Origin: Candidatus Abyssobacteria bacterium SURF_5
GTDB taxonomy: Bacteria; Abyssobacteria; SURF-5
Direction: 5' to 3'
Assembly (NCBI GenBank): GCA_003598085.1
Contig: QZKU01000032.1
Coordinates: 1-53,389 of the forward strand
DNA: 53,389 nt
The position numbers and the translations under genes are program-made. This document shows positions 2,580 through 40,173 of this stretch, piece by piece. Within the stretch, counting starts at the first letter, position 1, and every line of letters starts with the position of its first letter. The notes beneath the pieces were generated by a model. It was not told the DNA's origin. It made no database searches and was given only the letters and a program-made list of their open reading frames with translations.

Positions 2580-2636
2580 TTTTTCTTCTATTTGGGGACG
2601 ATTGAGGCCATGGGAAAAAATTTCCTACCTATGGAG

Positions 2637-2666
2637 ATTGTATGGCAGGGACCGCACATTTGGCAA
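2637..2666 (-). promoter_or_regulatory. sigma-70-like promoter of the VWA-FHA gene
   Basis: On the minus strand the -35 is TTGCCA (2661-2666) and the -10 is TACAAT (2637-2642), 18 bp apart. Each hexamer matches consensus at 5 of 6 positions. Transcription would start near 2630, leaving a leader of about 50 nt before the start codon at 2579. Confidence 0.55.
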
Positions 2667-2807
2667 CTAAAAAGAGTTTCAGCAGTCCTCCCCCACAGAA
2701 GCCGTGCGGAAGCAGGATACGGATTTTTGGGGGAAAATCGAGTGCTCCTTTCACAGGAAATGGGTAACTGACCGGGAAATGTAAGGGACACGGCACCTTA
2801 AGGCCTT

Positions 2808-3491
2808 TCAATGTTTCTCATAATATACATCCATCAGTCCGCTCGGCTTGTATTCGCCGGCAACGAGTTTTTTTATTCGGCGCACCCGTTCGGCATTTTC
2901 CTCAGGGTGTCTCAGCACATGAAATGAATTAGGAGCAATGATCATAGCCACCAAAGATACATACTCATCTTCGGTCAGTGATTCGAATGATTTCCCGTAG
3001 TAAGATTGCGCCGCCTCCTCAAACCCTCGAATTTCTTTCTCATCCTCATGACCCAGATAGAGAGCGTTTATGGACAAAAGCAACTGATCTTCCTTGGATA
3101 TCAGTGGATCAAGGGCGAAGACTGCTATCAGTGTCTGTTTCACCTTGCGGATGCCGGGCTTGAAGTTTTCAAAATACAGTATCTTGACCAGGCCCTGGGT
3201 GAGCGTTGTTATGCCGGCGCCGGGCGTCCTGAGGTCCATCCCGTTATGTTCAAAAAAAGTCGGGTCTTCAACCGCAAGAAGGATGTCTAGTTGTCTCTGG
3301 GTCATGTCTCCTGCGCTCAGCAGAAAGCCGTTGACGGAGCCATTTGGCCGGCGCCACGATTTGGACTCCAGGTCTTTTATGATGACGTCTCTGGTATAGT
3401 CTCGCGCCATCACGACGACGATAACGTAATATGAGATTATAGACAGCGAGACTATTCCTGCGGCAGCAATCAGCAATCGAAAGGTTTTCAT
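2808..3491 (-). CDS. divergent GT51-like (monofunctional transglycosylase-like) protein
   Basis: This 227-residue protein has one N-terminal membrane helix (about 5-28) and a GT51 peptidoglycan glycosyltransferase-like domain. Motif 1 is intact (E75-D76, F, H, G, D in VEDPTFFEHNGMD). The GITTLTQ segment corresponds to the STITQQ motif, and INALYLG plus the following GFEEAAQSYYGK match motif 4. In the RKxxE motif the second conserved acid is Gln (R115-K116-V-K-Q119), so activity may be reduced or altered. The protein is about the length of MtgA and has no transpeptidase domain. No strong ribosome-binding site is visible before the ATG. A promoter with perfect TTGACA lies upstream. It could be a true but unusual glycosyltransferase or a non-catalytic relative. 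Confidence 0.8.
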   Translation of the reverse strand: MKTFRLLIAAAGIVSLSIISYYVIVVVMARDYTRDVIIKDLESKSWRRPNGSVNGFLLSAGDMTQRQLDILLAVEDPTFFEHNGMDLRTPGAGITTLTQGLVKILYFENFKPGIRKVKQTLIAVFALDPLISKEDQLLLSINALYLGHEDEKEIRGFEEAAQSYYGKSFESLTEDEYVSLVAMIIAPNSFHVLRHPEENAERVRRIKKLVAGEYKPSGLMDVYYEKH

Positions 3492-3558
3492 GTAAGTGAT
3501 TTATCTGCGGAGTTTGGGCGGACGGAACTATCAGATGCAGATCTGACTGGTAGAGCAA

Positions 3559-3587
3559 GATATATCACATTCGATAGGCGTTGTCAA
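3559..3587 (-). promoter_or_regulatory. sigma-70-like promoter of the GT51-like gene
   Basis: The minus strand reads TTGACA (3582-3587), 17 bp, TATATC (3559-3564), with TGA just before the -10 (extended -10 type). The predicted start is near 3552, about 60 nt before the coding start at 3491. Confidence 0.6.
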
Positions 3588-3709
3588 ATCTGCATTTGCG
3601 GCGTAATGTCTGATTTTCTGCATAAGAACACGCGTCTCGGTGGAATCGGTCGCTGTGTGGGTGATGGACGATCAATATACCCCGAGCCGGTTACCCGACG
3701 CCTTTTGCT

Positions 3710-4408
3710 TCATTTTCCGGAAACCGCATATTCAAGTGCTTTTCGCGCATGGATGGTGGTTGTGTCGAATAGCGGAAGGGCCGAATCTGTTTCTGAAATC
3801 AGGAGCGGGATTTCCGTGCACCCGAGGATGACGCCTTCGGCGCCACGCCCAGCGAGGCTGGATATGATCTCCCGAATTCGCAGCCGAGAAGTATCCAGAA
3901 GCCTCCCTTGGACAAGTTCTTCCATTATGATGGTATGCACATCGTCCGCGCTTGGCTCATCCGGCACCAGCGCAGTAATCCCGTGTGACGCCAGCCGGTC
4001 TCTGTAGAAGGTTTTGTTCATGGTGAACTTGGTGCCCAGAAGACCTACTTTTGTCATTTTCTTCGCCTGGATTGCTTCGGCTGTCGCGTCGATCAGATTC
4101 AAAAAAGGCAAACGGGAGGCCCTCTGGACGTCATCAAACACGATATGCATGGTATTGGTCGCGATGATGCCGAAGTCGGCGCCGGCCTTCTCCAGCGCAC
4201 GGGCCGCCGCAATCATACTTTCGGTGATTCTATCCCAGCGATCCCCGGTCCACCAATCGACGTATTGCTGAAAGCACACGCTGTAGATGATGATCTCGGG
4301 ATACGCATGATTTCCGAAGCGCCGGGTGTATTCCCGGGTGATATATTGATAATACGTCACCGTTGACTCGGGGCTAAGCCCGCCGAGAATGCCGATTTTC
4401 TTGTGCAT
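3710..4408 (-). CDS. aspartate/glutamate racemase family protein
   Basis: This 232-residue cytoplasmic enzyme begins with GILGGLSPESTVTYY, the phosphate/substrate loop of the Asp/Glu racemase superfamily. The two catalytic positions are Thr84 (in ATNTMH) and Cys197 (in LGCTEI). A Thr/Cys pair instead of Cys/Cys is the arrangement described for E. coli YgeA-type L-Asp/Glu racemase, so one-directional or L-specific racemisation is likely (family knowledge). It may supply or remove D-amino acids. It lies 52 bp downstream of the membrane-protein gene at 4461-5099 on the same strand, so the two may be co-transcribed. A GAG-type ribosome-binding site precedes the ATG. Confidence 0.88.
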   Translation of the reverse strand: MHKKIGILGGLSPESTVTYYQYITREYTRRFGNHAYPEIIIYSVCFQQYVDWWTGDRWDRITESMIAAARALEKAGADFGIIATNTMHIVFDDVQRASRLPFLNLIDATAEAIQAKKMTKVGLLGTKFTMNKTFYRDRLASHGITALVPDEPSADDVHTIIMEELVQGRLLDTSRLRIREIISSLAGRGAEGVILGCTEIPLLISETDSALPLFDTTTIHARKALEYAVSGK

Positions 4409-24275: not shown

Positions 24276-24354
24276 ATATGGGGACAGAGACCATATTTTT
24301 ATTGTTAATATACTATCTATACTTTTTAAAGAAACATGGTCTGTGTCCCCATAT
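24276..24354. repeat. inverted repeat resembling REP/RAYT-type elements
   Basis: Two 23-bp arms (24276-24298 and 24332-24354) form an inverted repeat with 21 of 23 positions matching around a 33-bp AT-rich loop. The core of each arm is ATATGGGGACA-x-AGACCAT. From memory, repeats with a GGGGACA...ACCAT core occur beside REP-associated tyrosine transposase genes in other bacteria, but no such gene is present here. The repeat lies directly after the nnrD stop, so it may also act as a transcription stop. Confidence 0.6.
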
Positions 24355-24445: not shown

Positions 24446-24473
24446 TTGATTCGCCGTTCCAGCGTGGTATAAT
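24446..24473 (+). promoter_or_regulatory. extended -10 promoter of the glycan/lipid locus
   Basis: TTGATT (24446-24451), 16 bp, perfect TATAAT (24468-24473), with TGG immediately before the -10. The start would fall near 24480, giving a short leader that still holds the GGAGGG ribosome-binding site of the TTG start codon at 24495. Confidence 0.65.
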
Positions 24474-24494: not shown

Positions 24495-25355
24495 TTGCCT
24501 GGACCAGTATCCATAATTATTCCCGCTCACAACGAGGAGCTGAGCATCGGGGCCGTGGTTGAAGGGGTCTCGTCCACGATGGAGGAGGCCGGAATCGAGC
24601 ACGAGATCATCGTGGTGAACGATGGCTCCAGCGACGGCACGTTAAGAGCGGCATCGACGGCGAAGGCGCGCGTGCTCGATCTAGGCGTAAATCTCGGCTA
24701 CGGCGCTGCAATAAAACAGGGACTGAAATCGGCGCGTCACGAACTGATCGCGATAACCGACGCCGACGGCACCTATCCGGTCGCCGCGCTGCCGGAAATG
24801 GTGAGTGCGATGGAAGAGGCGGACATGGTGGTCGGCGCGCGGATTGGCGCTCATGTTTCGATACCGCTTGCGAGGCGGCCGGCGAAATGGGTGCTGACGC
24901 GTCTTGCGAATTACCTGGCGGCCACCGACATCCCCGACCTCAATTCAGGCCTGCGGGTAATGCGGAAATCGGTGCTCTCGCGCTTCCTGAATATCCTGCC
25001 GCGCGGCTTCTCGTTTACGACCACGATCACGCTCGCGATGCTGTGCAACGACTACCGCATCCGGTTCCACCCGATCGATTACCACCCGCGCACCGGCAAG
25101 AGCAAGATCAAGCCGATATCCGACACCTTCGGATTTTTCCTGACCATTATCCGCACCATCATGTACTTTAATCCGTTGAAAATATTTTTGCCGATAAGCG
25201 CGGCTCTTCTTTTTGCGGCGCTTGCGGTGCTGTTGTACAGCGGCTTTGTGATGGGTCGGGTGATGGACGTGACCGTGATCGTCCTGATGTCGGTTTCAAT
25301 TCAGGTGGCGGTGATCGGCCTTCTGGCGGACTTGATAGACAAACGGAATCCGTAG
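24495..25355 (+). CDS. GT2 glycosyltransferase, polyprenyl-phosphate-sugar synthase type
   Basis: This 286-residue enzyme has a GT-A fold: SIIIPAHNEE at the start, IIVVNDGSSDGT, and the metal motif D89-A-D91 (ITDADGTYP). Two C-terminal membrane helices (about 231-255 and 258-280) match dolichyl-phosphate mannose synthase and ArnC/GtrB-like enzymes, which transfer a sugar to a lipid-phosphate carrier at the inner membrane. The TTG start has GGAGGG about 8 nt upstream. It opens the glycan/lipid-like locus. Confidence 0.88.
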   Translation: MPGPVSIIIPAHNEELSIGAVVEGVSSTMEEAGIEHEIIVVNDGSSDGTLRAASTAKARVLDLGVNLGYGAAIKQGLKSARHELIAITDADGTYPVAALPEMVSAMEEADMVVGARIGAHVSIPLARRPAKWVLTRLANYLAATDIPDLNSGLRVMRKSVLSRFLNILPRGFSFTTTITLAMLCNDYRIRFHPIDYHPRTGKSKIKPISDTFGFFLTIIRTIMYFNPLKIFLPISAALLFAALAVLLYSGFVMGRVMDVTVIVLMSVSIQVAVIGLLADLIDKRNP

Positions 25356-25394
25356 CAGGAGCGGTATCTTTGCGGCGGTTTCTGGAGAGGCTTA

Positions 25395-26303
25395 TTGAGA
25401 AAGTTTTCGACGGCGGCAAAAATACTCGTATCCGCAGCAATCCTCCTCATCCTGTTTAGAAAAGCCAACCTGCAAACGGGAATTCATTTCGTCGGCGCCA
25501 TCGACTGGTTCTTCATCTTGCCGTCGGTTGCGTTGATCGTGCTTGCGCAACTGGCGCGGGCTTACCGGCTGGCATTGATGATCTTCGGCGCCTCAGCCGA
25601 AGGAAGATTCTTTCAGGTGCTGCGTATTCAGATGGTGTCGTTTCTGCCGGGAATCGTATCTCCGGCCAAGATAGGGGAGGCGGCTAAAATCTACATGTTG
25701 CAGGCCGATACAGGAACCCGGCTTGGACGTGCGACGGCCTGTTTCGTGGCCGAACGCGTGCTTGATATGCTGCTGCTCGTGCCGCTGGCGTCTCTTGGAG
25801 TTTATTTGCTTATCGGCCCCTCCTTTTCGTTCTCGTTTCAAAAGACTTTTTTTGCGCTTGTGATCGTCCTGACGGGCACGGCCGCCTGCGTGCCACTGGG
25901 GCTTGCCTATGCAAGACGCAAGGGAGTCAGGGCCGCCGATATCTGGGATACGGCAAAGCCTTCGAAGCTGCTCGCGGCCGGCGGCATCACCATGCTCTAT
26001 TGGGGGATGGTCTTTGCAGAAGTCTGGTGTTTTTGCAGGGCCGCCCTTTTCGGCGTGACGCTCCGGCACATCTCGCTGGCTGTCCCGCCCGCTCTGCTCT
26101 CGAGTCTGCTGCCAGTCAGTTTTTCCGGCTTCGGTGTGCGGGAGGCCGCCCTTGTCTTCTTGCTCCAGCGTCCGCAATTGGGAGCGACTTACAATCAGGC
26201 GCTTCTTGTCAGTCTCATGTACATCGTTTTTGGTCTCGGGGTCCCCGCTCTTATGGGCTTGATATATTGGTGGGTTGGAAGAAGCAATGTATCACAGAAT
26301 TGA
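25395..26303 (+). CDS. LPG-synthase-TM/UPF0104-like flippase family membrane protein
   Basis: This 302-residue multi-pass membrane protein has about eight hydrophobic segments. The pattern GEAAKIYML...RATACFVAERVLDMLLLVPLA, then SSLLPVSFSGFGVREAALVFLL, is typical of the lysylphosphatidylglycerol-synthase transmembrane/YbhN (UPF0104) family. Members are linked to lipid-linked sugar or lipid flipping and modification. A TTG start follows GGAGAGG. Its end overlaps the next gene. Placement directly after a polyprenyl-type GT2 suggests that it moves the lipid-linked product; this is inference. Confidence 0.82.
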   Translation: MRKFSTAAKILVSAAILLILFRKANLQTGIHFVGAIDWFFILPSVALIVLAQLARAYRLALMIFGASAEGRFFQVLRIQMVSFLPGIVSPAKIGEAAKIYMLQADTGTRLGRATACFVAERVLDMLLLVPLASLGVYLLIGPSFSFSFQKTFFALVIVLTGTAACVPLGLAYARRKGVRAADIWDTAKPSKLLAAGGITMLYWGMVFAEVWCFCRAALFGVTLRHISLAVPPALLSSLLPVSFSGFGVREAALVFLLQRPQLGATYNQALLVSLMYIVFGLGVPALMGLIYWWVGRSNVSQN

Positions 26304-28836
26304 AGTTGGCGACAAAGAGCTGGTGTGCAACGGCCGATTTCGAGGAAAAATCTCCACACATCCGCTGGAAGGAATTCGCTCGCAAATTTCGGTCTCATCG
26401 CGCGATGATATCACAATTGTGCAGGTGCAATGGAAAATCAAGAAACCCCCTCAGCCGGCGGCCCCGCTTGAATTGCTGAAGGTGGAGCTGACCGACTTTG
26501 TTCCGCGTTCGATGTTCATCTCGGGCAGGCGCTATGAATCCGCCGCTTCCCCGCGTCCGCCCATTCGCGAGAAAGGCTTTCCCTATAATACCTACTACAA
26601 GTTCCGCATACGAACCGCTAACGAGTATGATGCCGCGCTTCATGCAAAGTTGCCGCTTGTGTGCTGGCAGGGGGAGGACTGCGCCTTCTCCATCGTGTTC
26701 CCGAAGTTCGTCGCGCTGAGCAACCGACACTGGCCTGCATTTCTGCAAGTTAGCGGGCCCGGACAGAATGCGTCGTTTTCACTGGTGCTGCCGGATCGAT
26801 TCGAGGTCCAATGCAAACCCTATGGCTGGTTCAGCGCCCAATCATCCACCGAGCGGTACACATTGAATCTTTCCAATGAGCATCTTATTGAGGTTTCGGT
26901 GGCTTTCCTCGCCGCGACCGGTTGGCCTGAATGTGTGCGCAAGGCTGCAGATTTCCTTTTTCCGGCGGAAGAGGCGGAGAAAGTGGAAACCGGCCCAATT
27001 GTCGGCCTCTTGGAGAGAACCTTGCATTTCTACGGACGGACCTGGGACAACACGAATAAGACGCATGTGCATCTGCCGATCAAGAATTTCCCCGAGTTCG
27101 AGTCAATTGAATACAAGCATTCGCACATTACCGATGATTTCACCAAACTGGTTCTGTATCGAAGGCTGATCAATGCCGGATGGCAAAACCTGCTGACGCG
27201 CGAACGGGAGCTTTTGCAGAAAATCAAGGGCGGCGATTATCTCCTCACGTCCGACGGGGATTCCATTTGGCATAGTACGACCTACTTCAACGGGAGCGTC
27301 CTCGAAGCATTCACCCACCATGGAACGGGCTTTGTGGGATTTCCCGGCGGGGTGGCGACAAATGTGCGTCGCCTGTGCGAATACGCCGCGCTTTCAGGCG
27401 ACAAAGCACTTGTGCGAATCGCCGAATCCGGAGCGCAGTGGTTGCGGCGACTCGAGCGGCAGGATGGCTCGTGGCCGGCGGTCTTTCGAAAGGACGGAGA
27501 AGAAGATGGCGGCTGCATCGCGAGCACTGCCGAATGCGCATGCGCGCTGCTGGCGGCGTACCGGCTGGTTGAGAAGCAGGAGTATCTTACAGCAGCCGAA
27601 TCGGCTGTTCGTTACATTAATCGCGATGAGAGTTTCTTTGAGTGCAGGCAGTATCTTCGCGATGTCGGCGCAAACGAGGCCGACGGCATTACTGCCGAGG
27701 CCTGCATCCACGCAAATCTGGATTTGTTTGCGGCAACCGGGGAAAGACAGTTTCTCGAGCAGGCGGAGAAATGGGGGTGCTACTCACTTCAGTGGGTGCG
27801 GCCGTTTCATCTGCATAAGGGAGATGGCCCGGCTTTTGATGGGCTCTCACGCTCGATCACTCCGCGCGTCGACGTCTGGGGAGGGCTTCTTATTGGGCGG
27901 GCCCTGATCCGGCTGGGGCGCGTGTCCGGTGAGCGGGGGTGGGAGAGCCATGCATGGAGGCTTTTTGGACAAACGGTCAACCTGCAAGAACGCGATGGTG
28001 GCTTGTGCGAGACATGGTTTTATGACTTCCCTGAGGGAATCGAGAGCATACACATAGAACCGACTTTTGTCACCGACGCCTTCGTGGAATTTATGCTGGA
28101 TGCAACAGGCGGCGAGCAAATTGCCAACGAGTTGTCATTGCGAAAGAGGCTTCTCGAGAAAAGCTTCCCGCTGCTGCAGCCGATCGCCCCGATACAGAAC
28201 CTGGTTGCTCTTTCGAAAACAGAGCCGGAATTTATCGTCGACAGAAGACTCCGGCTGGCGCCGGCATTCAGCGGCCTTATGAGCACGGGGGGCAAGCTGC
28301 GCCGTTTCCTTTATAGAAAATTTCGCACAAAGCCTTTGCGCCCGGCGCTCAAAATTGTGCCGGCGCTGAAGATCCTCCTGAGCAGACACCGCGTTCATCC
28401 GCCATCAGCGGAGCTACAGCCGGCCGATCACATCAAGATCAAACATGCACGAGCCGAACATTTCGGTATCGGCCGTCAGCGCTTCGTTTATTCATCTGAT
28501 TCTTGTACGATCATCCTGTCGATAGACGCTGCGGGAATGAATGATCGGGGTTTGCCGGGCAACGATATCGGATTTGCAATTGAAATGCTCGCCGGCGATG
28601 CTTCGGTCGAACAGGTGCGGATCGACCTGAGCGGCGATTATACGGTAAAATCCATTTCAAAAGACGGCGTGATCGTCTTCGCCGGAGGAACAGACTACAG
28701 CATGCGAATCATGGGCGGCTCGATTGACGGGTTCCTTCAACAGGAAAAGCGGCTCGCCTTCGATATCAGCTTGAGCGCGAACTGGAACTTTTTCGGAAAA
28801 TACCTGCTGCGGATGCGTGTCGAACGCATGCAGTAG
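26287..28836 (+). CDS. large protein with alpha/alpha-toroid-like core, function unknown
   Basis: I cannot name this 849-residue protein. It has no signal peptide and no membrane helix, so it is likely cytoplasmic. The N-terminal 200-250 residues look beta-rich. The middle (about 270-640) has repeated helix-pair units such as TAECACALLAAYRLVEKQEYL and TAEACIHANLDLFAATGERQFL, with acidic and aromatic residues (DGDSIWHS, QDGSWPAVF, DGGLCETWF) as in alpha/alpha-barrel glycosidases, epimerases and lyases. The C-terminus (about 720-849) is again beta-rich. ATG 26287 follows GGAAGAAG. It overlaps the flippase-like gene by 17 bp, so the genes are coupled. A cytoplasmic sugar-modifying enzyme is possible. 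Confidence 0.7.
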   Translation: MYHRIEVGDKELVCNGRFRGKISTHPLEGIRSQISVSSRDDITIVQVQWKIKKPPQPAAPLELLKVELTDFVPRSMFISGRRYESAASPRPPIREKGFPYNTYYKFRIRTANEYDAALHAKLPLVCWQGEDCAFSIVFPKFVALSNRHWPAFLQVSGPGQNASFSLVLPDRFEVQCKPYGWFSAQSSTERYTLNLSNEHLIEVSVAFLAATGWPECVRKAADFLFPAEEAEKVETGPIVGLLERTLHFYGRTWDNTNKTHVHLPIKNFPEFESIEYKHSHITDDFTKLVLYRRLINAGWQNLLTRERELLQKIKGGDYLLTSDGDSIWHSTTYFNGSVLEAFTHHGTGFVGFPGGVATNVRRLCEYAALSGDKALVRIAESGAQWLRRLERQDGSWPAVFRKDGEEDGGCIASTAECACALLAAYRLVEKQEYLTAAESAVRYINRDESFFECRQYLRDVGANEADGITAEACIHANLDLFAATGERQFLEQAEKWGCYSLQWVRPFHLHKGDGPAFDGLSRSITPRVDVWGGLLIGRALIRLGRVSGERGWESHAWRLFGQTVNLQERDGGLCETWFYDFPEGIESIHIEPTFVTDAFVEFMLDATGGEQIANELSLRKRLLEKSFPLLQPIAPIQNLVALSKTEPEFIVDRRLRLAPAFSGLMSTGGKLRRFLYRKFRTKPLRPALKIVPALKILLSRHRVHPPSAELQPADHIKIKHARAEHFGIGRQRFVYSSDSCTIILSIDAAGMNDRGLPGNDIGFAIEMLAGDASVEQVRIDLSGDYTVKSISKDGVIVFAGGTDYSMRIMGGSIDGFLQQEKRLAFDISLSANWNFFGKYLLRMRVERMQ

Positions 28837-28854
28837 TCGCTACGGATTTATTTT

Positions 28855-30036
28855 ATGATCACAGTTTTTCTTCTTGTGCTCGCGGCTGCACTTGGCGAAT
28901 ATGTTCTTTATAACCTGATCATGCTGATTGCCGGCCTCGCGCGTTCGGAGAGAAAATCGTCAGCTTTCACTCCTCCACTGAGCGTTATTATTCCGGTTCA
29001 CAATGAGGAGCGGCATATCCGGCGGAAGCTGGAGAACGTTTTGCAATCCGAGTATCCTCGTGAACGGCTCGAGGTTGTTGTGGTGGATGACGGCTCGACC
29101 GACGGCACTGCGCAGATCGTTCGGGAGTTCGAGCGGGAAGAGGTTGTTCTCATCGAAACGGCCGAGCGTAAAGGGAAAATCACCGCACAGAAAACCGGCT
29201 TTGGGCGCACATCCGCCCCAATTATAGTTATCACCGATGCCACCGTGCTCGCGCCGCCGGATGCCCTGAAAAAGCTCGCGTCTCATTTTGAAGATCCCCG
29301 CGTGGGTGCGGTCTCGACAGCAATGGTCGTACGGAATCGGCGCACCAATTATCTGACGCGAATCGCCCAGTTTCTTTTCGATCTTCAGAATGCGCAAAAA
29401 CTCGGCGAGAGTTCGCTCGACAGCGCCGGCGGACTCTTCGGCCAGTTCTCGCTGGTGCGCCGCGAAGCGATCGGCGATTTCCGGACAGATGTAATCTATG
29501 AGGACCGCGAGTTCGGGATCACGCTCAGGCGGCGCGGCTATCGATGCCGATTCGAACCCTCCGTACAAGCGAGCTATTACGCGGCCGAGTCGCTCGAGGA
29601 TTTCTCGCGTCAGAAGCAACGCAATATCGGAGCAATGACACAATCGATCTTTCGCCACAAGGACATGCTTTTCAACCCGCGCTATGGATGGTATGGATTG
29701 CTCATTTTGCCCGAGTACTCGCTCTTTCGGGTTCTGCGACCCTGCTTGATAATAGCGGGATTTGTCGGAACCTTCCTTTCCGCCCTGGCGGCGGACCCAG
29801 GCGTTCTGGTTCCGCTCCTTATCGGGATGACCGGCATGACCTTCGCATGCTATCTTGCCGGAACAATGCTGCTTGCTCCGCTCGTGCGAGAGCCGGCCCG
29901 TTTTCTGCTGGACGTGCTGACAACGGCGCCCGTCATGGTCCTCATTCTGATTCAATTCGCGATCGGCGGTATTCGGTACCTGCGGGGTGATTTTGATGCA
30001 ATGTGGCAAAGGGTAAAACGGGATCGCGCACTGTGA
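28855..30036 (+). CDS. GT2 glycosyltransferase with membrane segments
   Basis: This 393-residue processive-type GT2 protein has an N-terminal membrane helix (about 1-24), then PLSVIIPVHNEE, VVVVDDGSTDGT and the metal-region segment VITDATV, where the second Asp of the usual D-x-D is replaced. The acid EDREF and the basic motif RQKQRNIGAM correspond to later GT2 motifs. Three or more C-terminal helices follow. Similar enzymes elongate lipid-linked or surface glycans. The next gene begins within or at its stop codon (GTG at 30033 or ATG at 30039). Confidence 0.86.
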   Translation: MITVFLLVLAAALGEYVLYNLIMLIAGLARSERKSSAFTPPLSVIIPVHNEERHIRRKLENVLQSEYPRERLEVVVVDDGSTDGTAQIVREFEREEVVLIETAERKGKITAQKTGFGRTSAPIIVITDATVLAPPDALKKLASHFEDPRVGAVSTAMVVRNRRTNYLTRIAQFLFDLQNAQKLGESSLDSAGGLFGQFSLVRREAIGDFRTDVIYEDREFGITLRRRGYRCRFEPSVQASYYAAESLEDFSRQKQRNIGAMTQSIFRHKDMLFNPRYGWYGLLILPEYSLFRVLRPCLIIAGFVGTFLSALAADPGVLVPLLIGMTGMTFACYLAGTMLLAPLVREPARFLLDVLTTAPVMVLILIQFAIGGIRYLRGDFDAMWQRVKRDRAL

Positions 30037-30038
30037 GC

Positions 30039-31469
30039 ATGAACGTGCTTCTCTTAAATCCGCAGCCCGACAGCGACGTCGTAATCAGCCGCGACCACAT
30101 GGGCGGCTTCGGGTTTGAAATTAAGAGCACCAACATGATCCCGCCGCTGTCACTTGCATATTGCGCGGCCGTAATTGAGAGGGCGGGAATCAAGGTCGAG
30201 ATTCTCGATGCAGTCGCCATGCGATGGCGCCCGGCGCAGGTGCTGGATTGGATCAAGCGGCGCAACTTCAATCTGATCGCGATCAATACCGCCACCCCTT
30301 CTATTGCCGAAGATCTGGCAATTGCAAAAGAAATCAAGCTGCTCTTTCCCGAGAGCCTGCTTGCGCTGCTCGGGCCGCACGTGTCCATTTTTGCAGGCGA
30401 CGCGCTTGAGGCGTCGCAGGCGGATGTGGTTGTCAGGGGCGAGCCGGAGAATACGCTGAACGATGTCGCGCAGGCTCTTGCCTCAGGACGTCCCATTGAC
30501 GATATTGCGGGCCTGACAGTGAGAGATGAGGTTAACATCCGGCGGAACGCCGACCGCCCGCTCATTACGGACCTCGATTCGCTTCCCGTGCCGGCAAGGC
30601 ACCTGCTCCCCATGGAGAAGTACCAGTCTGCCTTTTGGGGAAAGAAGCCGTTCACAACGATGCTTACGAGCAGGGGCTGCTTCTACGGATGCTCGTACTG
30701 TCCCTACCGCATCGGGCACGGCGTCGAGTGGAGGGGGCGCTCGCCGGAGAACGTACTCGCCGAAATCCAGGAGTGCGTTCGGCGATACGGAGTGCGCGAG
30801 ATTCTTTTTCGAGATCCGCTTTTTACGGCTGATAAGGAGAGAGTCTTGCGCATCTGCGAATTGATTGCTCGACGAGATATATCGGTCGACTGGCGGTGCG
30901 AGACACGCGCCGACCTTTTAACTGAAGAGATGGTCGATGCCTTCGCGCGGGCCGGGTGTAAGGGGATCAATTTCGGAGTCGAGTCGGGAAATGAGCAGAT
31001 TCTGGCGTGCGCCGGCAGGAAGCGGATTTCCATTGACCGCCTGGCATCTGTTTTCCAGAGGTGCCGCAAGGCCGGCATCGAAACGCTCGCTTTTTTCATC
31101 ATCGGCCTGCCGGGCGAAACGACGGAGAGCGTGGACGAGACCGTCCGGCTTGCCATTGAATTGCAGCCCGATGCGGCTCAATTCACGGCGGCCACTCCCT
31201 ATCCGGAAACTCCCTACTATGAATACTTGAAACGTGAGGGTCTGCTCAAACAGGACTGGTCACTCTATACCAGCCGCGCACCGGTCGTGGGGACTCATTC
31301 GCTCACTCCCGATCAACTGCGCCGGCTCATCGCTCGCGCGTACCGCACCTTCTATTTCCGTCCACCGTACCTGCTGATGCGAATGAGGAAGCTGACATCG
31401 CCACACGAGGCGCTCAGACTCTACAAAGGGTTTCTCAGCGCACTCCGGTATGCCGGCTTGTCGCGATGA
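30039..31469 (+). CDS. B12-binding radical SAM protein
   Basis: This 476-residue protein has an N-terminal B12-binding Rossmann-like domain (MNVLLLNPQP, then DILDAVA-like strands) and a radical SAM core with the CxxxCxxC cluster motif C214-x3-C218-x2-C221 (SRGCFYGCSYC). The segment GVESGNEQIL is typical of this family. Members methylate or rearrange carbon skeletons, often in lipid, hopanoid or natural-product pathways. The ATG at 30039 and a GTG at 30033 in frame, overlapping the previous stop as GTGA, are both possible. It lies next to two glycosyltransferase genes, so it may modify a lipid or sugar product. Confidence 0.87.
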   Translation: MNVLLLNPQPDSDVVISRDHMGGFGFEIKSTNMIPPLSLAYCAAVIERAGIKVEILDAVAMRWRPAQVLDWIKRRNFNLIAINTATPSIAEDLAIAKEIKLLFPESLLALLGPHVSIFAGDALEASQADVVVRGEPENTLNDVAQALASGRPIDDIAGLTVRDEVNIRRNADRPLITDLDSLPVPARHLLPMEKYQSAFWGKKPFTTMLTSRGCFYGCSYCPYRIGHGVEWRGRSPENVLAEIQECVRRYGVREILFRDPLFTADKERVLRICELIARRDISVDWRCETRADLLTEEMVDAFARAGCKGINFGVESGNEQILACAGRKRISIDRLASVFQRCRKAGIETLAFFIIGLPGETTESVDETVRLAIELQPDAAQFTAATPYPETPYYEYLKREGLLKQDWSLYTSRAPVVGTHSLTPDQLRRLIARAYRTFYFRPPYLLMRMRKLTSPHEALRLYKGFLSALRYAGLSR

Positions 31470-31492
31470 TTTCCTTGCCTGTCCAATTTTGC

Positions 31493-31521
31493 TTGACCTT
31501 ACGCAAACGCTTGTCTATAAT
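31493..31521 (+). promoter_or_regulatory. strong sigma-70 promoter of the zinc-finger/TPR gene
   Basis: TTGACC (31493-31498), 17 bp, perfect TATAAT (31516-31521). It starts about 50 nt before the ATG at 31575, so the following genes form a separate unit from the glycosyltransferase run. Confidence 0.75.
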
Positions 31522-31574
31522 GGACTTTAGAAGATTTCCCGGCGCCGGTAGTACTAAACACACAAGGAACACGA

Positions 31575-33317
31575 ATGGGTACGGATGGAGCCAGGGCTCC
31601 CAAAGATTGGAAGGTCCAAAAAAGCGATGGTAGCCGCCTGGAGCCTGCCAACCTGAGCGTCTTAAGGCATTGGGTCGAGACCGGGCAGATCGAGGCGGAC
31701 GATCTCGTCATCAACGAAGACCTGAGCGACTGGATTCGCGCGGCCGAAGCTCTCGACCTCTTTGATCTTTTCGAGCGACAGGAGCCGGGAGACCGGTCTG
31801 GGGAATCTGCCAGGCAATCGGTGGAATTCGCTGATCTCGAAATCAAGATACCCGATTGCGCATACCATCCCGGCCAACCTGCCGCAGAAATCTGCGTCGG
31901 ATGTGGCAAATTCGTGTGCAAGGAGTGCGGCGAGCGGTTCGAGAGCAAGCTTTACTGCCGGAGATGTCTCGCCGAGAAGCAGGTGGGAGCGGAGCCGGGT
32001 CTGGCTGCAGCCGGTCCCGTAGCACAGATCATTCCCGGCGTTCGTCCGGCGCAACGGGTCAATCGGTTCTCCCTTGCCAGCGTTACCCTCTCGGTCGTCG
32101 CGATCTTGTGCTCATTCTTAATGATCAGTCCAAGATTCAGAATGGCGGCGGCTCCTGCAGTTGGGTTCATTTCCTTTCTCGCGGCGCTTCTGGGCGCCAT
32201 AGGACTTGGCAACCTGAGATCGACACAGCTTTCCTCTCGATCAAAACAGTTCGCATTGTCGGGCCTGCTCGTCGGGCTTTCGTTGCTCATTCTGTCGGTT
32301 ATGGCTATTTCACTTTCAATTCGCCAATTCCGCTCGGGTTCCGCAACATCCATCCGCGGTAATCAGTTGAATTCAATTGCCCCTCAAACCGCGCGGCGCC
32401 AGCCTATCTACTCAAAGCAGATGCAGGAGGAGCGCGATGCCAACTCGCGGCAGCTCCTCGATCAGTTGACGGACCAACTGAATGCCGGCCAGTTGGAGGG
32501 AGCGGTCAGTACTGCCAGAACCTTGGTCGGATTGTATCCGGAAACGGATGCGGCACGGATCACGCAGGAACGCCTCCCGCTGCTCGAGAACGCGCTCGAA
32601 GAGAAGCGGGTGGTGGATCAAGAGAGTCTGCGCGAAAACGAGGAACGTGCGCGCCAAAGACTCGAATATGCGTTAAAGATTTATTCAGACGGCAATCTGA
32701 ACGTCACGATCGACCTTTTGCGGAGTATCGTGGAGAATTTCCCGACTACTGAAACCGCCAAGCTGGCCGAAGCAGAATTGAAAAGAATCGAGGGGCTCCT
32801 GACTAATCAGCGCATGAAGCAAGAAGAGGAAGATGCCTCACGGCTTGCCCGACAGGCAAGGGAGCGCATGGAGATGGAGCGATATGAGGAAGCCGCCGAC
32901 ATCTATCGACGCCTCCTCAACCAATATCCCGCCACTCCGACAGCCGTGGCGGCCCGGGCTGATCTTGCGCAGGCGCAGCTTCTGCTTTCAGATGCGTCGG
33001 AAAGAGAATTTCGAAGAATTCAAAAACAGTCGCCGGACCTCTCCTATGAGGATGTTATCCCTCGACTGCAGGAATTTCTGGCGCAATACCCTTCCAGCGC
33101 CCGCTTTGAGGAAGCAAATCGGATGCTGCAGGATCATCTTACGAACAAGAGCATTGCGGACGGCCTGTACACCTTCGGCAAAACTTATCTGTCGGAGCGG
33201 AAGTACTCATTGGCGCTGGGGCGCTATGATAAGCTGATCAACGAGCATCCTCGAAGCCAATGGACCGCGCAAGCGCGCAAGGATCGAGAGCACGCGCTCG
33301 AAAAGCTTAAGGAATGA
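31575..33317 (+). CDS. GYF-like/zinc-finger/membrane/TPR-like fusion protein
   Basis: I know no single family for the whole 580-residue protein. In order it has an N-terminal GYF_2-like region (about 10-70, with W52 and charged turns), and a B-box-like zinc site (C95, H98, C107, C110, C115, C118, C128, C131). Three membrane helices follow (about 167-184, 192-213 and 227-249), and then a long helical domain (about 275-580). The last region has repeats such as ALKIYSDGNLN, RMEMERYEEAADIYRRLL and LALGRYDKLINEHP, resembling TPR/BamD-like helices. The C-terminus could scaffold a membrane complex. It has its own strong promoter and overlaps the next gene by 4 bp. Confidence 0.72.
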   Translation: MGTDGARAPKDWKVQKSDGSRLEPANLSVLRHWVETGQIEADDLVINEDLSDWIRAAEALDLFDLFERQEPGDRSGESARQSVEFADLEIKIPDCAYHPGQPAAEICVGCGKFVCKECGERFESKLYCRRCLAEKQVGAEPGLAAAGPVAQIIPGVRPAQRVNRFSLASVTLSVVAILCSFLMISPRFRMAAAPAVGFISFLAALLGAIGLGNLRSTQLSSRSKQFALSGLLVGLSLLILSVMAISLSIRQFRSGSATSIRGNQLNSIAPQTARRQPIYSKQMQEERDANSRQLLDQLTDQLNAGQLEGAVSTARTLVGLYPETDAARITQERLPLLENALEEKRVVDQESLRENEERARQRLEYALKIYSDGNLNVTIDLLRSIVENFPTTETAKLAEAELKRIEGLLTNQRMKQEEEDASRLARQARERMEMERYEEAADIYRRLLNQYPATPTAVAARADLAQAQLLLSDASEREFRRIQKQSPDLSYEDVIPRLQEFLAQYPSSARFEEANRMLQDHLTNKSIADGLYTFGKTYLSERKYSLALGRYDKLINEHPRSQWTAQARKDREHALEKLKE

Positions 33318-34879
33318 ACCTGCCAACCGCGAACACCGCAGACCCGGACGTATCGGCTCAACCACGTTCGCCGCATTCATCCGCCCCGAAACTTCTTATC
33401 ATTATCGGTCTGGTCGCAGCATGTCTTCTCATCCTCTATCATTCCCTGCACACGCCAACCTACACCATCGACAGCTATTTTTATCTGTCGAAGGCAAAAC
33501 AGTTCGCCGCCGGGGAGGGTCTCAGGACTTCATGGAACGACGGCATCGACCCGAAATATTTCCCGGGATATTCACTGGCGCTGGCATTATCCTTCTCTCT
33601 GGGAGGCGGCCATGTGCCGGTGCAACTCCTCGTCTATGTGCTGTCGGTTATTTTGTTCATCGCGATATGCAAAGAGATCGGGATGGATACCATCGAGCAA
33701 GCATTATCCTCGACTGCGTTCCTTGCGAACCCGATAGTCATCAAGTGGCATTCGCTCCCAATGGCCGAGGGGACCGCGCTGGCGTTTTCGCTCGCAGCGG
33801 TCCTGGCAATGCTTCGTTCGCTCAAGACAAGAAATTATGTGTTCTATTTCTCCGCTTGGATTCTTGCGGGATTTGCCTTAATAACGCGGGCCGAAGCGGC
33901 ATTCCTCCTGGTCGTTTTCTGTATGCTGCTGTTTCGCAGGCGCCATGAGATACCTTCATCGGCTGCCATGGGAGGCGGGCTTCTCTTTTTCCTTCCGCTC
34001 ATCCTGTATTGGGCTAAATTCAATTTCATGATGGGCTCCGCCCCTGCGTACGTGAATGAGTTCAGATACACGCTAGCCGGCGCCAATATCGTGAAGAACT
34101 TCGTTTACAACATCTATGCACCTTTCGGCCTGATGCATAAATTTTCCCTTGGGGAGGTAAATACTGTGCTTGCGCCGGCAGTTGCGACTGCAGGAGTGAT
34201 ATGGCTTCTGGTTGGCGGAATCCTATTCTTGGGCGGGTTAGTCGCTGCGGTCGCCGGACGCACGGGCTCCGTGGCGCGGGCGTCGGCTATCCTGTTCCTC
34301 CTGTTTGCCGCAATACATTCCCTCTGGTATTACCGATATGAGCGTTTCATGATGTTGGCTCTGCCATTCGCCGCTCTGGTTTGGGCATCGTCTGTCACCG
34401 TTTATGCCCGCCGCTGGAAACAGGACCGCTGGCTGCCCCTCGCTGCGCAGACTCTCATGTTGAGTACAGGTCTTGTTCTTGCGCATCATTTCAGCTCCGT
34501 TCACAGCATCTCTCTGCAAAAAGATGCCGCTCGACTCAATTTTGTCGAAATCGCGCAAGCTGTGGGCGCTTTGAACAAGCCCGAGGAAAAGCCGGTTCTC
34601 ACCGACCTCGGGCCGCACCTTGCGTATTACCTCGATGCGCAAACTTATTTGGACGACGACCACGGTAACTATTGGCAAAGGGCTTTCGCGCCGGAACGTA
34701 CCATCGAATCGCTGAAGAAGCTGGGAATCAAACTGATCGTGACACGGTTGGATTTCGATCGGTGGACAGCAGAACACCATGTCCCCCCTGAAATGAAATT
34801 GCATTTTCAAGAGATCCGCGGCGAAGTCGAAGGAGCAACCATCATCAGATATCTGCCGGCGGATGTCACCGGTTCTTGA
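33314..34879 (+). CDS. GT39/PMT-like multi-pass membrane glycosyltransferase
   Basis: This 521-residue protein has an N-terminal helix (about 27-44), a first loop with the acidic Asp of the family (TYTIDSYFYLSKAKQF), and about ten more hydrophobic segments. It ends in a soluble C-terminal domain (about 400-521). This layout is typical of GT39/PMT_2 and related GT-C transferases that use lipid-linked sugars on the periplasmic side. The start ATG overlaps the end of the preceding gene by 4 bp. Its stop overlaps the tail of the convergent epimerase gene by 14 bp. The sugar donor and acceptor are unknown. Confidence 0.8.
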   Translation: MNLPTANTADPDVSAQPRSPHSSAPKLLIIIGLVAACLLILYHSLHTPTYTIDSYFYLSKAKQFAAGEGLRTSWNDGIDPKYFPGYSLALALSFSLGGGHVPVQLLVYVLSVILFIAICKEIGMDTIEQALSSTAFLANPIVIKWHSLPMAEGTALAFSLAAVLAMLRSLKTRNYVFYFSAWILAGFALITRAEAAFLLVVFCMLLFRRRHEIPSSAAMGGGLLFFLPLILYWAKFNFMMGSAPAYVNEFRYTLAGANIVKNFVYNIYAPFGLMHKFSLGEVNTVLAPAVATAGVIWLLVGGILFLGGLVAAVAGRTGSVARASAILFLLFAAIHSLWYYRYERFMMLALPFAALVWASSVTVYARRWKQDRWLPLAAQTLMLSTGLVLAHHFSSVHSISLQKDAARLNFVEIAQAVGALNKPEEKPVLTDLGPHLAYYLDAQTYLDDDHGNYWQRAFAPERTIESLKKLGIKLIVTRLDFDRWTAEHHVPPEMKLHFQEIRGEVEGATIIRYLPADVTGS

Positions 34880-35315
34880 TCGTCCAGATATCTTCCAGTT
34901 CGCCGATTCCCTTACGCAGTTCGTCGGGGTCTTTTGCGTTATATGGCTCGGTTGGAATGTTAATGAGATAGCTCATCTCGCTGAGACCCATCTGGCCGTG
35001 CCAGACCATCGGCGGGATGATCAGAAGGACGTTCTCTCCGTCATCGCCAAGGATGAACTGATTGTATTCACCCTTCGTCGAACTCTCCGGCCTGTCATCA
35101 TAAAGCCCGATTTTCGCCGTTCCCTTCACCACATGGAAATGGTCGGTCTGCTTCCGGTGACAATGCCAGGCCTTGACAACATTGCGACGGCAACTGGCGA
35201 CATAGATCTGTCCGAATTTATTGTAATGGGGTGAATCTGACCGCAGGATTTCCGTTACGAATCCCCGGTCGTCGGCGTGGCGTACCAGCGGAATCTTTTG
35301 GACCCCTTCAATCAT
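34866..35315 (-). CDS. dTDP-sugar 3,5-epimerase/cupin family protein
   Basis: This 149-residue cupin resembles dTDP-4-dehydrorhamnose 3,5-epimerase-like proteins and FdtA/WxcM-type sugar isomerases. Visible features are DDRGFVTEILR near the start, AWHCHRKQTDHFHVVKGTAKIGL and PPMVWHGQMGL with several His residues. The start at 35315 has GGGAGGAG about 6 nt upstream; a longer in-frame version is not supported. Its own promoter lies at 35368-35396. It is convergent with the GT39-like gene, with a 14-bp overlap of stop regions. A role in making a deoxysugar for the nearby glycosyltransferases is likely but is inference. Confidence 0.82.
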   Translation of the reverse strand: MIEGVQKIPLVRHADDRGFVTEILRSDSPHYNKFGQIYVASCRRNVVKAWHCHRKQTDHFHVVKGTAKIGLYDDRPESSTKGEYNQFILGDDGENVLLIIPPMVWHGQMGLSEMSYLINIPTEPYNAKDPDELRKGIGELEDIWTIKNR

Positions 35316-36873: not shown

Positions 36874-39048
36874 TTACAATTCTTTCTTGACGGCGCGGAT
36901 GAGGCCGCCAGCGCGAAAATCTTCAATCTTGCAGTAGGAAGAGCCCATTGCTTTTGCAATCCGCTGGGCCATTGAAGGCGAACTAGCCGAATTTCGGAAG
37001 ACGGAAAACCTGCGTTCTTCGGTATCGATGACCAGTGTCTTGATTCGCTTGTCTTCGCGGATCATCTTCGCGATCGTGAATAGCTCCTCGAGGAGAGCTG
37101 CGTAGCCTGGGCCTTCATAGCATTTTTCTCTTTTCACACCGACATTGGCCTCACCGTCCGAGATCAGTACCATCAGCGGAAGCGTCTGGCTGTCGCGGCG
37201 CAGGTAATTGACCAGCAGCTCATGCGCCTTCAGGAGCCCCTGGCCCAGTGGCGTCTTTCCTCCGGCAGGAAGGTCTTCGAGCAGTTTCTTGGCGAGGTCG
37301 ATGCTGTTGGTGGGCGGCAGGAGCACCTCCGCGGAATCCCCCTTGAAAGTGACCAAGGCCACCTTATCGCGGCGCTGATAGGCATCAAGCAGCAGGCTGA
37401 TCATTGCCGCTTTGGTCTCGGTCATCAGCCGAGTCCCCATGGATCCGCTCGCGTCCACCACGAAAAGCAGGAGGCTTCCCACCTTCATCTCCCGCACCTT
37501 TTCGCGAATATCGGATTCCTCAATAACAATCGCGACCTCTTCCTTCGGCCGACCCTTCTGGTGAGGAGCGGCGGCGCGGATAGTGGCATCGAAAGCCATG
37601 TCATCGTTCCGGCGCTCCGATGTGCTGCGGATATAGCGTCCGGTTTTGCGCAACGTCTTGGTCGGCATCCGGCGCCCGCTCTTTCTCCGGTAATTCCTGT
37701 CCTTTTCCAGCAAGAGCGGCGGCACCCGAAAAACGTCGCCGACTCCAAACAGGCGCTCCTTGAAATTTTTTTCCCGAAGCTCCTGAGAGGCTCCGACAAT
37801 TTCGCTTTGCGCTCCTGGTTCGAGCTTGCCGCTGTCACCCTGCATGTCGGAATTATCGTCGTCTCCCAATCCGCATGCGGATCCGGCTGCGTCTGATTCA
37901 TCCACACTTTCGCCATTGAGCGAGGATTCGTTCGATTCGACCTCGACCAGCGAATCATCCTCCCCGGGCAGCTCTTGGCGTTGCGCCTTCAGGTCTTGCT
38001 CTTTTGCGAGTTCCTCGGCCAGCATCCGATGAAAATCCTCGAGCGTCTTCTTGGGGAGATCGGTTCTGCGCGATCGGTGCGGGAGCACCAAAGAGGCGGC
38101 GCGGCTGAGATCGTCGAGGACGGGGGTCCTTCGCTGGTTCAGTGCGGCAATCGTGCGTGCCGCCTTCTCCAGATAGATATCGGCGCGATGGCCGTCCACC
38201 TGGTTGACCAGACAGATCTGCGTGATAAATTTTCTCGTTTTCTCCGGCACCTCCACCCGGGGCAGAAAGGCAATTGCGCGCCGTATCTGTTCTCCGAGTG
38301 AAGCCTGCATCACTTCCCACTTGCAAAGGAACTGTTCCGGGGCGGAGTCAAATTGTTCTCGTCGTTTGATCAACTCAACCCGCGCTGCAATATCAGTAAT
38401 CCCCTCGACGCTGACGCACAGGCCGAACCGGTCGAGCAACTGCGGCCGCAATTCTCCCTCCTCAGGATTCATTGTCCCCACCAGCACGAATCGGGAAGGA
38501 TGATTGAATGAGATCCCCTCGCGCTCGATGATATTGGTTCCGCTGATCATGGTATCGAGCATGAGGTTCACTATGTGGTCGTCCAGAAGATTCACTTCAT
38601 CGACGTAGAGGATGTTCCGGTTTGCAGCCGCCAATAAGCCGGTTTCGATCCTCCTTTTTCCCGACCTGAGCGCAAATTCAAAATCAATCGTTCCGACGAC
38701 CCTGTCTTCTGTCGCCCCAATAGGAAGATTAATGACCTGGACCTTTCGGCTGGATATGGGAAGGGCGTCGCCGGTCGAAAATCGACGGCGGCAACTGCGG
38801 CACATGTTCTCTACGTCTCGGGGATGACAATTGAAAGGGCAGTCGGAAACTGTCTCGATCTCGGGCAGCAGATCGGCGAGTGCGCGAACCGCGGTTGATT
38901 TGGCCGTTCCTTTTTCCCCGCGAATGAGCACTCCGGAAATGGACGGATTGATCGCGTTCAGGATTAAAGCGAGCAAGAGTTGTTCCTGACCGACAATCGC
39001 GGTGAACGGGTAGACGGGTGCGGCACAAACCTTGCTGCGGCTGTTCAT
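36874..39048 (-). CDS. Mg/cobalto-chelatase-type subunit D (AAA+ and VWA domains)
   Basis: This 724-residue AAA+ protein has an N-terminal ATPase core: Walker [10 protein letters not shown] (44-52), a Cys4 site (C70, C74, C83, C86) and [12 protein letters not shown]. An acidic linker follows (about 370-420), and then a C-terminal VWA domain with MIDAS DASGSMG. This is the ChlD/BchD-type layout, used with ChlI to insert Mg2+ into protoporphyrin or, with CobN, Co2+ into a corrin ring. Unlike many D subunits, its Walker A is intact. It starts 2 bp after the ChlI-type stop, so the pair is one operon. No large subunit or pigment gene is present, so a cobaltochelatase or other VWA-AAA role is more likely than photosynthesis. 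Confidence 0.85.
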
Positions 39049-39050
39049 AA

Positions 39051-40097
39051 CTACCTGCTTAGCGTCGCGTGTTCTTTTAAAACAGCCGAAATGCGCTCGC
39101 GATCGAGAACCACTTCCTCGAAGGGCTTCCGCCGCACGCGATGCTGCAGCGCCATTTCCGCCGCCTCTTCAAGGTCCTGATACGTGACGGAGGTCCGCTG
39201 ATGAAATGCCGCTACGGTCTTGGCTGTCTTCATCATGATGATATCGGCGCGATGCCCGTCCACGCCGATCTCGATCGAGATGTGCGCGATCTTGTTGAGA
39301 ATGTCGTCCGAAATGCGCACGCGGGGAAGGATCTCCCGTGCAAAAACAATCTTCTCGCGCAGCTCGGTTTCGGCTGCCTCCCACTCGCGTAAGAATAATT
39401 TTGCGTCTTCTTCAAAGGCCACCCAACGCTTTACTACCTCAACCCGCTGCAGCGGATCTGCAATCCCCTCAATATTCACGCATAATCCGAATCTGTCCAG
39501 CAACTGCGGCCTCAACTCCCCCTCCTCCGGATTCATCGTTCCCACCAAAATGAATTCCGACGGATGCGAGTAGGAAACGCCCTCTCTCTCGATTGAATTG
39601 ACGCCCATTGCCGCCGAATCGAGCAGCACATCAACTATATGATCGTCCAGAAGATTTACCTCGTCGACGTAAAGGATCCCGCGATTCGCGTCCGCCAGAA
39701 CGCCCGGCTCGAATTTCTTTTCGCCCTTTTTGATCGCGTGCTCCAAATCCAGCGTGCCGACTACCCTGTCCTCGGTTGCGTTCACCGGCAGGTTTATCAC
39801 CCGCGTTTGCCGCTCCTCCGCCTCCAGGTTCACCTTGTTGACCGCCTTCTCCTTACACTGCAAACACATCTTGTGGATGTCCGACGGGTCACAGTGAAAT
39901 GGGCATCCCTTCACGACACTCAAAGTCGGCAGCAGAACGGCAAGCGATCTGACGGCGGTTGATTTGGCCGTCCCTTTCTCTCCGCGGATAAGAACGCCCG
40001 AGAGCTTGGGGTTGATTGCATTCAAGATGAGCGCCAGTTTCATCTTCTCCTGGCCGACAATAGCGGTGAAGGGAAAATTGAGCTTTAAATCTTTCAT
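39051..40097 (-). CDS. Mg/cobalto-chelatase-type subunit I (AAA+ ATPase)
   Basis: This AAA+ ATPase has 348 residues from the start at 40097, which has AGGA upstream and follows the expected transcription start at a usual distance. ATG 40163 would add 22 residues but lacks a ribosome-binding site. Visible features are [19 protein letters not shown], Walker [10 protein letters not shown] (39-47), a Cys4 site (C65, C69, C78, C81) and [19 protein letters not shown]. It should form hexamers with the D-like subunit that drive metal insertion. Both subunits share the same ATPase and Cys4 layout, a sign of duplication. Confidence 0.87.
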
Positions 40098-40173
40098 CGA
40101 GTCCTGCTTCCTCAATTTCTGGAATGGGTCGATTCGGCCGCCCCGCACGTCTTTCACATTCATTCAAAAGAAA

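Follow-up and report, generated by a model that had tools for sequence, protein, structure and literature searches.

The locus analyzed here raises the question of whether eight neighboring genes of the deep-subsurface organism Candidatus Abyssobacteria bacterium SURF_5, among them glycosyltransferase, membrane protein and radical SAM genes, form one module and, if so, what this module may produce. The window is a stretch of 53,389 nucleotides (contig QZKU01000032.1), in which the block occupies positions 24495-35315 with all of the previously described open reading frames present (Table 1). To our knowledge, the Abyssobacteria are a lineage known from metagenomes alone.

Table 1. Genes and promoter-like sites of the block, with their positions in the window
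Feature	Position	Strand	Basis
Sigma-70-like promoter, first unit	24446..24473	+	TTGATT-16-TATAAT, TG before -10; consensus scan 10/12
GT2a, predicted polyprenyl-phosphate sugar synthase type GT2, two C-terminal TM segments	24495..25355	+	PF00535, 93 bits
LPG_synthase_TM / flippase-like membrane protein	25395..26303	+	PF03706, 110 bits (cut-off 33)
Cytosolic toroid (predicted): N-terminal beta domain, (alpha/alpha)6 toroid, C-terminal beta domain	26275..28836	+	Fold match
GT2b, membrane GT2, minimal cellulose-synthase-like type	28855..30036	+	PF00535/PF13641
B12-binding radical SAM enzyme, HpnJ/AprD4/BchE group	30003..31469	+	PF04055 and PF02310 over cut-off
Sigma-70-like promoter, second unit	31493..31521	+	TTGACC-17-TATAAT; consensus scan 11/12
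GYF-like / B-box-like zinc / three-TM / TPR protein	31575..33317	+	TPR_6 and YfiO over cut-off; 3 TM
GT-C-fold glycosyltransferase (predicted), GT39/ArnT-like by fold	33314..34879	+	Fold match; DSYFY invariant
dTDP_sugar_isom cupin, 3,5-epimerase / isomerase superfamily	34866..35315	-	PF00908, 39.6 bits (cut-off 27)

A conserved block of two units

In a second genus (JACRIR010000237.1), all eight genes were kept in the same order and orientation, and in a third (SURF_17), the last six recur on a contig that begins within the toroid gene. The surrounding neighborhood varies between the genomes, the nnrD neighbor being on another contig in one of them (G001) and not found in another (G002). Since the flanking genes are not conserved while the block persists, it can be considered a genetic module. 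An earlier note on this DNA, which had taken scattering of the genes in relatives as evidence against a common pathway, had called for a check of their co-occurrence; no such scattering was seen, and the recurrence of the block in two further genera between differing flanks is more than would be expected by chance. The carriers are only three genomes of one family, and the complete set was not found outside this family among 386 sampled genomes, which do contain relatives of the toroid and relatives of the radical SAM protein.

Adjacent genes among the first five are spaced by -34 to +39 nt, and promoter-like sites lie directly upstream of the first gene of each unit, as the earlier note had read them. 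The TATAAT just 5' of GT2a is kept in L031 (JACRIR010000237.1), and the promoter of the second unit recurs in each of the three genomes (TTGATT-18-TATAAT at the matching position in L031 and L030). As a conserved promoter of its own precedes the second unit, each unit could have a different function, and it might be argued that a five-gene glycan operon and a TPR/GT-C/cupin unit are separate neighbors held nearby by general synteny. The gap between them, which measures 105, 203 or 516 nt depending on the genome, and a PDDEXK_3 gene inserted between the GT-C and cupin genes in JACRIR010000237.1 point in the same direction. However, both units stay together although their flanks are not conserved, and the three-component core described below would be left without its GT-C enzyme if the second unit were excluded; we thus find separate functions unlikely.

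A putative three-component core

Based on its sequence, GT2a is predicted to be a GT2 polyprenyl-phosphate sugar synthase, in agreement with the polyprenyl-type GT2 proposed before: its PDB relatives are ArnC, DPMS and GtrB sll0501, it has two transmembrane (TM) segments and a DAD motif, and it is 77% identical to its counterpart in JACRIR010000237.1. The top NCBIfam match is AglJ (115 bits), with DPhHxTase/PpgS also matched, all far beneath the cut-offs. The adjacent LPG_synthase_TM protein has six hydrophobic segments, scores over the TIGR00374 cut-off as well (51 bits) and is, judging from these matches, a flippase-like candidate; as far as we know, flippase activity is unproven for LPG_synthase_TM proteins of this type. 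For the third component, called GT39-like in the earlier note, no Pfam match and no PDB sequence match was obtained, but its medium-confidence model (pLDDT 65) was matched by Foldseek to ALG12, ArnT, PglB and Pmt4 (prob 1.00 and E down to 4e-5 for the first three), which points to a GT-C fold. The models of this protein and of the toroid were built on alignments of three rows, which limits the confidence in both.

The logic of GT2a, a flippase-like protein and a GT-C enzyme fits a lipid-linked sugar made inside and used outside, as in the known GtrB/GtrA/GT-C scheme of three-component extracytoplasmic glycosylation (PMC11127046). As in such systems (GtrA/GtrB/Gtr GT-C, or pentofuranose with GT136), the candidate synthase, flippase and GT-C enzyme are encoded together, along with an auxiliary sugar isomerase candidate; unlike in them, the flippase candidate is an LPG_synthase_TM protein in place of GtrA or MATE, and the locus also encodes GT2b, the B12 radical SAM enzyme, the cytosolic toroid and the Zn/TPR protein as extra components. 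The AglJ match of GT2a and its LPG_synthase_TM neighbor also recall archaeal AglJ/dolichyl-phosphate hexose synthases and LPG_synthase_TM-containing glycosylation proteins, but the host is bacterial, and no AglB-type oligosaccharyltransferase was recognised within the block.

The isomerase candidate corresponds to the sugar epimerase that had been noticed converging on the second unit: it is a minus-strand cupin, convergent with the GT-C gene, in which the Pfam domain expected of RmlC (dTDP-4-dehydrorhamnose 3,5-epimerase) was found over cut-off. Its ORF is open to 35516 with a conserved start at 35315, its identity in relatives is 83-85%, and its closest solved relative is 3ejk. As for the supposed zinc-finger/TPR fusion, the TPR part scores over cut-off, whereas the GYF_2 and zf-B_box matches are weak and beneath the Pfam cut-offs; a zinc site is supported instead by eight invariant residues (C95, H98, C107, C110, C115, C118, C128 and C131). 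This protein is a possible membrane scaffold.

A cytosolic toroid protein

The protein previously described as toroid-like has 853 aa from a TTG start, or 849 aa if translation begins at the ATG codon in position 26287, and no TM or signal segment. No Pfam or NCBIfam match supported this description, and a sequence search of the PDB gave nothing under E 0.04, but the fold search did support it with low to medium confidence: the weak model (pLDDT 57) matches GH76, AGE (GlcNAc 2-epimerase) and GH127 folds, with the toroid domain reaching TM-scores by target of 0.58-0.65 to GH76 and AGE chains, consistent with an (alpha/alpha)6 toroid. While its toroid domain resembles those of GH76 mannanase, GlcNAc 2-epimerase and GH127, it differs from these in having no sequence match to them (nor to the Pfam profile of any other (alpha/alpha)6 family), in carrying its own family motifs, in being cytosolic and in its extra N- and C-terminal beta domains.

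Residues H333, D463, E468, D470 and R531 are invariant in the family; the sequence gave no catalytic assignment. The family motifs were also found in three distant genomes, and the family comprises at least two lineages besides Abyssobacteria; weak matches in G179 and G184 were not counted as members, and a search of the genome contigs with the single protein gave no relatives. In another phylum, the gene of one relative overlaps a PMT_2 GT-C gene, and that of another relative comes after an MsbA-like exporter gene. A phage origin was rejected, with no PHROG match under E 0.01. The fold and motifs suggest an undescribed family with a carbohydrate-active fold, which may have a role in the pathway.

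The B12 radical SAM enzyme and the second GT2

The radical SAM protein carries both features of the B12-binding superfamily, the cluster motif CxxxCxxC (CFYGCSYC at residue 226, cysteines invariant) and a B12-binding domain (PF02310, 51.7 bits versus a cut-off of 32.1), from which cobalamin use is predicted. Its three best-scoring NCBIfam families are HpnJ (top, 248.3 bits versus a cut-off of 577.6), AprD4 and BchE, with scores far under every equivalog cut-off. HpnJ and AprD4 act on sugars. The gene overlaps that of GT2b and is 63-68% conserved in relatives; its closest relative outside the family (G095, another phylum) has a GT2a homologue as its direct neighbor and an LPG_synthase_TM gene at a distance of about 3.5 kb, in what is a single case. 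A defence-system reading was discarded, as PADLOC gave nothing relevant beyond one weak radical SAM model.

The enzyme might instead act on the polyprenyl carrier or on a lipid of the membrane (by ring closure, C-C coupling or methylation), with the glycosyltransferases decorating that lipid. A match to TIGR04072 (lipid biosynthesis B12 radical SAM) reaches 122 bits, but is outscored by HpnJ and AprD4, with their sugar substrates, and by BchE, and the neighbors are glycan genes, with no fatty-acid or isoprenoid gene in the block. We therefore give this alternative only a small chance, even if the B12 radical SAM enzymes proposed to form ladderanes and tetraether rings have lipids as substrates (PMC13142503). 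Apart from methylases, the number of characterised B12 radical SAM enzymes is small (PMC13142503).

GT2b has four TM segments and an ED motif, is about 60% identical in both relatives and has 6yv7 as its closest solved relative. Its best score is to PgaC-type synthases (92.9 bits), far beneath the cut-off of 422.3, and with no [QR]xxRW motif, as expected of processive PgaC/cellulose synthases, it is probably non-processive. That score, as well as the occurrence of radical SAM genes of the same class near glycosyltransferase genes elsewhere, would agree with an ordinary exopolysaccharide locus, where GT2b would be the polysaccharide synthase, misrouted polymer would be removed by the toroid as a glycosidase, and the presence of the radical SAM enzyme would be incidental. 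We consider this very unlikely, given the PgaC shortfall and the missing motif, the conserved radical SAM gene overlapping GT2b, and the block itself, in which genes for outer-membrane export, a polymerase or a copolymerase were not recognised.

The resemblance to HpnI, HpnJ and HpnK, which have roles in bacteriohopanetetrol cyclitol ether synthesis (PMC5462960), is that here too a membrane GT2 adjoins an HpnJ-like B12 radical SAM enzyme. Cyclitol ether formation on a hopanoid side chain by these two proteins is nonetheless extremely improbable, since, with HpnJ as top match and HpnI matched weakly by GT2b (53 bits, cut-off 310), both scores lie far beneath the cut-offs, and the SURF_5 genome yielded no match to squalene-hopene cyclase (while controls gave matches) and no HpnH over cut-off, so that hopanoids are excluded as substrate in SURF_5, barring gaps in a 98.5% complete assembly.

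Proposed pathway

The reading that we propose, with roughly even confidence, is that the eight genes form one module, which makes a modified extracytoplasmic glycan on the three-component principle. Gene content, order, conservation, families, predicted folds and promoter-like sites are shown here; from these we infer every biochemical step, and the roles given to the toroid and to the radical SAM enzyme are the most conjectural. GT2a would act in the cytoplasm, placing a hexose on polyprenyl phosphate, and the membrane protein GT2b would add a sugar or build an acceptor. The HpnJ-like enzyme may rearrange, oxidise or methylate a sugar residue of the lipid-linked intermediate, which the toroid may trim, epimerise or bind. 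The intermediate would cross the membrane by way of the LPG_synthase_TM protein and be transferred by the GT-C enzyme to an outer-surface acceptor, with the Zn/TPR membrane protein as a putative scaffold and the cupin possibly assisting preparation of the sugar nucleotide. The sequence built, modified, flipped and used, as put forward in the earlier note, is plausible.

That note had not recognised a known pathway here, which stands for the whole set but not for its parts, as both a three-component core and the pairing of HpnJ-like enzymes with neighboring GT2 genes are of known kinds. In the literature, no paper was found that joins a cobalamin radical SAM enzyme with a flippase, polyprenyl and a glycosyltransferase. 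A more speculative proposal, which we hold to be possible if rather doubtful, is that of an undescribed pathway in which the B12 radical SAM enzyme remodels a polyprenyl-linked sugar (by ring contraction, dehydration or C-methylation) and a new cytosolic toroid family processes the intermediate before flipping and use by the GT-C enzyme. A conserved locus in which a lipid-linked sugar pathway is joined by a B12 radical SAM enzyme would offer a concrete substrate class for this group of enzymes, and would be a first point of entry to the Abyssobacteria cell surface.

Organization and conservation of the locus

The eight genes claimed for this locus in the earlier note were all found by ORF, Pfam and NCBIfam checks. 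The first five (GT2a, LPG_synthase_TM, toroid, GT2b and radical SAM) are tightly packed, with intergenic distances between -34 and +39 nt. Further along, the GT-C gene shares 4 nt with the Zn/TPR gene before it and 14 nt with the cupin gene, which is convergent with it. The promoter-like sites preceding GT2a and the Zn/TPR gene fit the sigma-70 consensus well (10/12 and 11/12 positions, respectively). The second site is kept in both relatives compared with the window, SURF_17 (QZKI01000020.1) and JACRIR010000237.1 (hereafter JACRIR), and in JACRIR a TATAAT is retained upstream of GT2a.

The window genome comprises 145 contigs and 5,103,455 bases, and Candidatus Abyssubacteria SURF_5 has been described with 145 scaffolds, 5.1 Mb and a GC content of 54.7% (PMC6121073). 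According to a genome search, this genome and the two relatives represent three genera of a single family. In JACRIR, all eight genes occur in unchanged order and orientation; the SURF_17 contig begins partway through the toroid gene, followed by the five genes downstream of it in the locus. Identity to the window is highest for the cupin (~84%), followed by GT2a (77%, measured in JACRIR), the radical SAM protein (63-68%) and GT2b (about 60%); the toroid, Zn/TPR, GT-C and LPG_synthase_TM proteins range from 39 to 52%. The genes flanking the locus are not the same in the window and in the relatives; nnrD, for instance, adjoins GT2a in the window, lies on a separate contig in one of the relatives' genomes (G001) and was not found in the other (G002). 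Since the block stays intact while its neighbors vary, we infer that it constitutes a functional module. The full eight-gene set was found in none of the 386 sampled genomes outside the family.

Several further features were observed in and around the locus (coordinates in the table). In JACRIR only, a PDDEXK_3 gene lies between the GT-C and cupin genes, and the GT-C protein of the same genome carries tandem EKWGHDATP repeats. Immediately upstream of the locus, the window contains an inverted repeat, TATGGGGACAGAGACCAT...ATGGTCTGTGTCCCCATA, an 18-mer of which has 39 copies in the window genome allowing up to two mismatches (0 in the reversed control), one copy in G001 and none in G002; this is a lineage-specific REP-like element. 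Elsewhere in the window are two tandem genes, both magnesium-chelatase-type AAA ATPase-like by eye only, with a common start, FTAIVGQE... (14 protein letters not shown).

Coordinates of features of the locus, its relatives and the surrounding sequence
Feature	Sequence	Coordinates
Inverted repeat	window	24277-24353
Tandem AAA ATPase-like genes	window	36877-40163
Second HpnJ-like radical SAM gene (L043)	G000:C17 (window genome)	2510-3901
Toroid gene, JACRIR	L031	2577-5438
GT-C gene, JACRIR	L031	10595-12292
PDDEXK_3 gene, JACRIR	L031	12349-12735
Distant toroid-family member, other lineage	L015	5473-7863
Distant toroid-family member, other lineage	L016	8577-10904
Distant toroid-family member, other lineage	L014	8525-10435

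A probable three-component glycosylation core

Among solved structures, the relatives of GT2a are ArnC, dolichyl-phosphate mannose synthase and GtrB, and among NCBIfam profiles it also resembles AglJ/PpgS. The LPG_synthase_TM protein contains a flippase-like domain scoring above the cut-off in both Pfam and NCBIfam. For the GT39-like protein, the product of the GT-C gene, Pfam and PDB sequence searches found no sequence family, and in a fold comparison its predicted model matches ALG12, ArnT, PglB and Pmt4. Together, these three proteins, with the LPG_synthase_TM protein as the candidate flippase, correspond to the parts of the three-component extracytoplasmic glycosylation system whose scheme is given in PMC11127046.

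Radical SAM enzyme, GT2b and cupin

The radical SAM protein possesses radical SAM and B12-binding domains as well as the cluster motif. Its top NCBIfam scores are to HpnJ (248 bits), AprD4 (186) and BchE (179), all far under the cut-off. Sugars are the substrates of HpnJ and AprD4. The small number of cobalamin radical SAM enzymes that PMC13142503 lists as non-methylating includes HpnJ and BchE. Hopanoids were excluded in the window genome by genome-wide profile searches. A second HpnJ-like radical SAM gene is present in the window genome, with a counterpart on contig C32 of G001, and both lie beside recombinase-like and ABC ATPase-like genes, as judged by eye.

The best relative of the radical SAM gene outside the family is in G095, a genome from another phylum whose locus was inspected because it gave the top-scoring match. 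There, the gene adjoins a homologue of GT2a (35% identical across 280 aa) and lies ~3.5 kb from an LPG_synthase_TM gene, within a broader polysaccharide region, a co-location that represents one case and not a survey. For GT2b, the nearest solved structure is 6yv7, and the processive [QR]xxRW motif is absent; for the cupin it is 3ejk, a structure deposited under the name dTDP sugar isomerase.

An undescribed toroid family

Neither a signal nor a transmembrane segment was found in the toroid protein. Its predicted model is weak overall (pLDDT 57), with several toroid helices modeled well, and in a fold search this weak model matches (alpha/alpha)6 carbohydrate-active chains. Relatives occur in three other genomes from two other lineages and have in common with it the motif types HNT, TxxxTGxAGYPGG, LRDxGxxExDG and SFxPRxxxW; these proteins form an undescribed family. 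One distant relative overlaps a PMT_2 GT-C gene, another sits after an MsbA-like ABC exporter gene, and the third is flanked by genes for a subtilase and a helicase. A link of the family to membrane glycan genes is possible, from few cases. The JACRIR toroid carries an in-frame insertion, NPPQSPFVKGGS...FPPLSKGGRGD, which looks like a translated dispersed repeat.

Proposed pathway

The earlier note had proposed that this gene set builds, modifies, flips and uses a lipid-linked sugar. The most likely reading, to which we give about an even chance of being correct, is a three-component lipid-linked sugar pathway, its core being the firmest part, to which the radical SAM enzyme would add a modification and the toroid protein may contribute a processing step.
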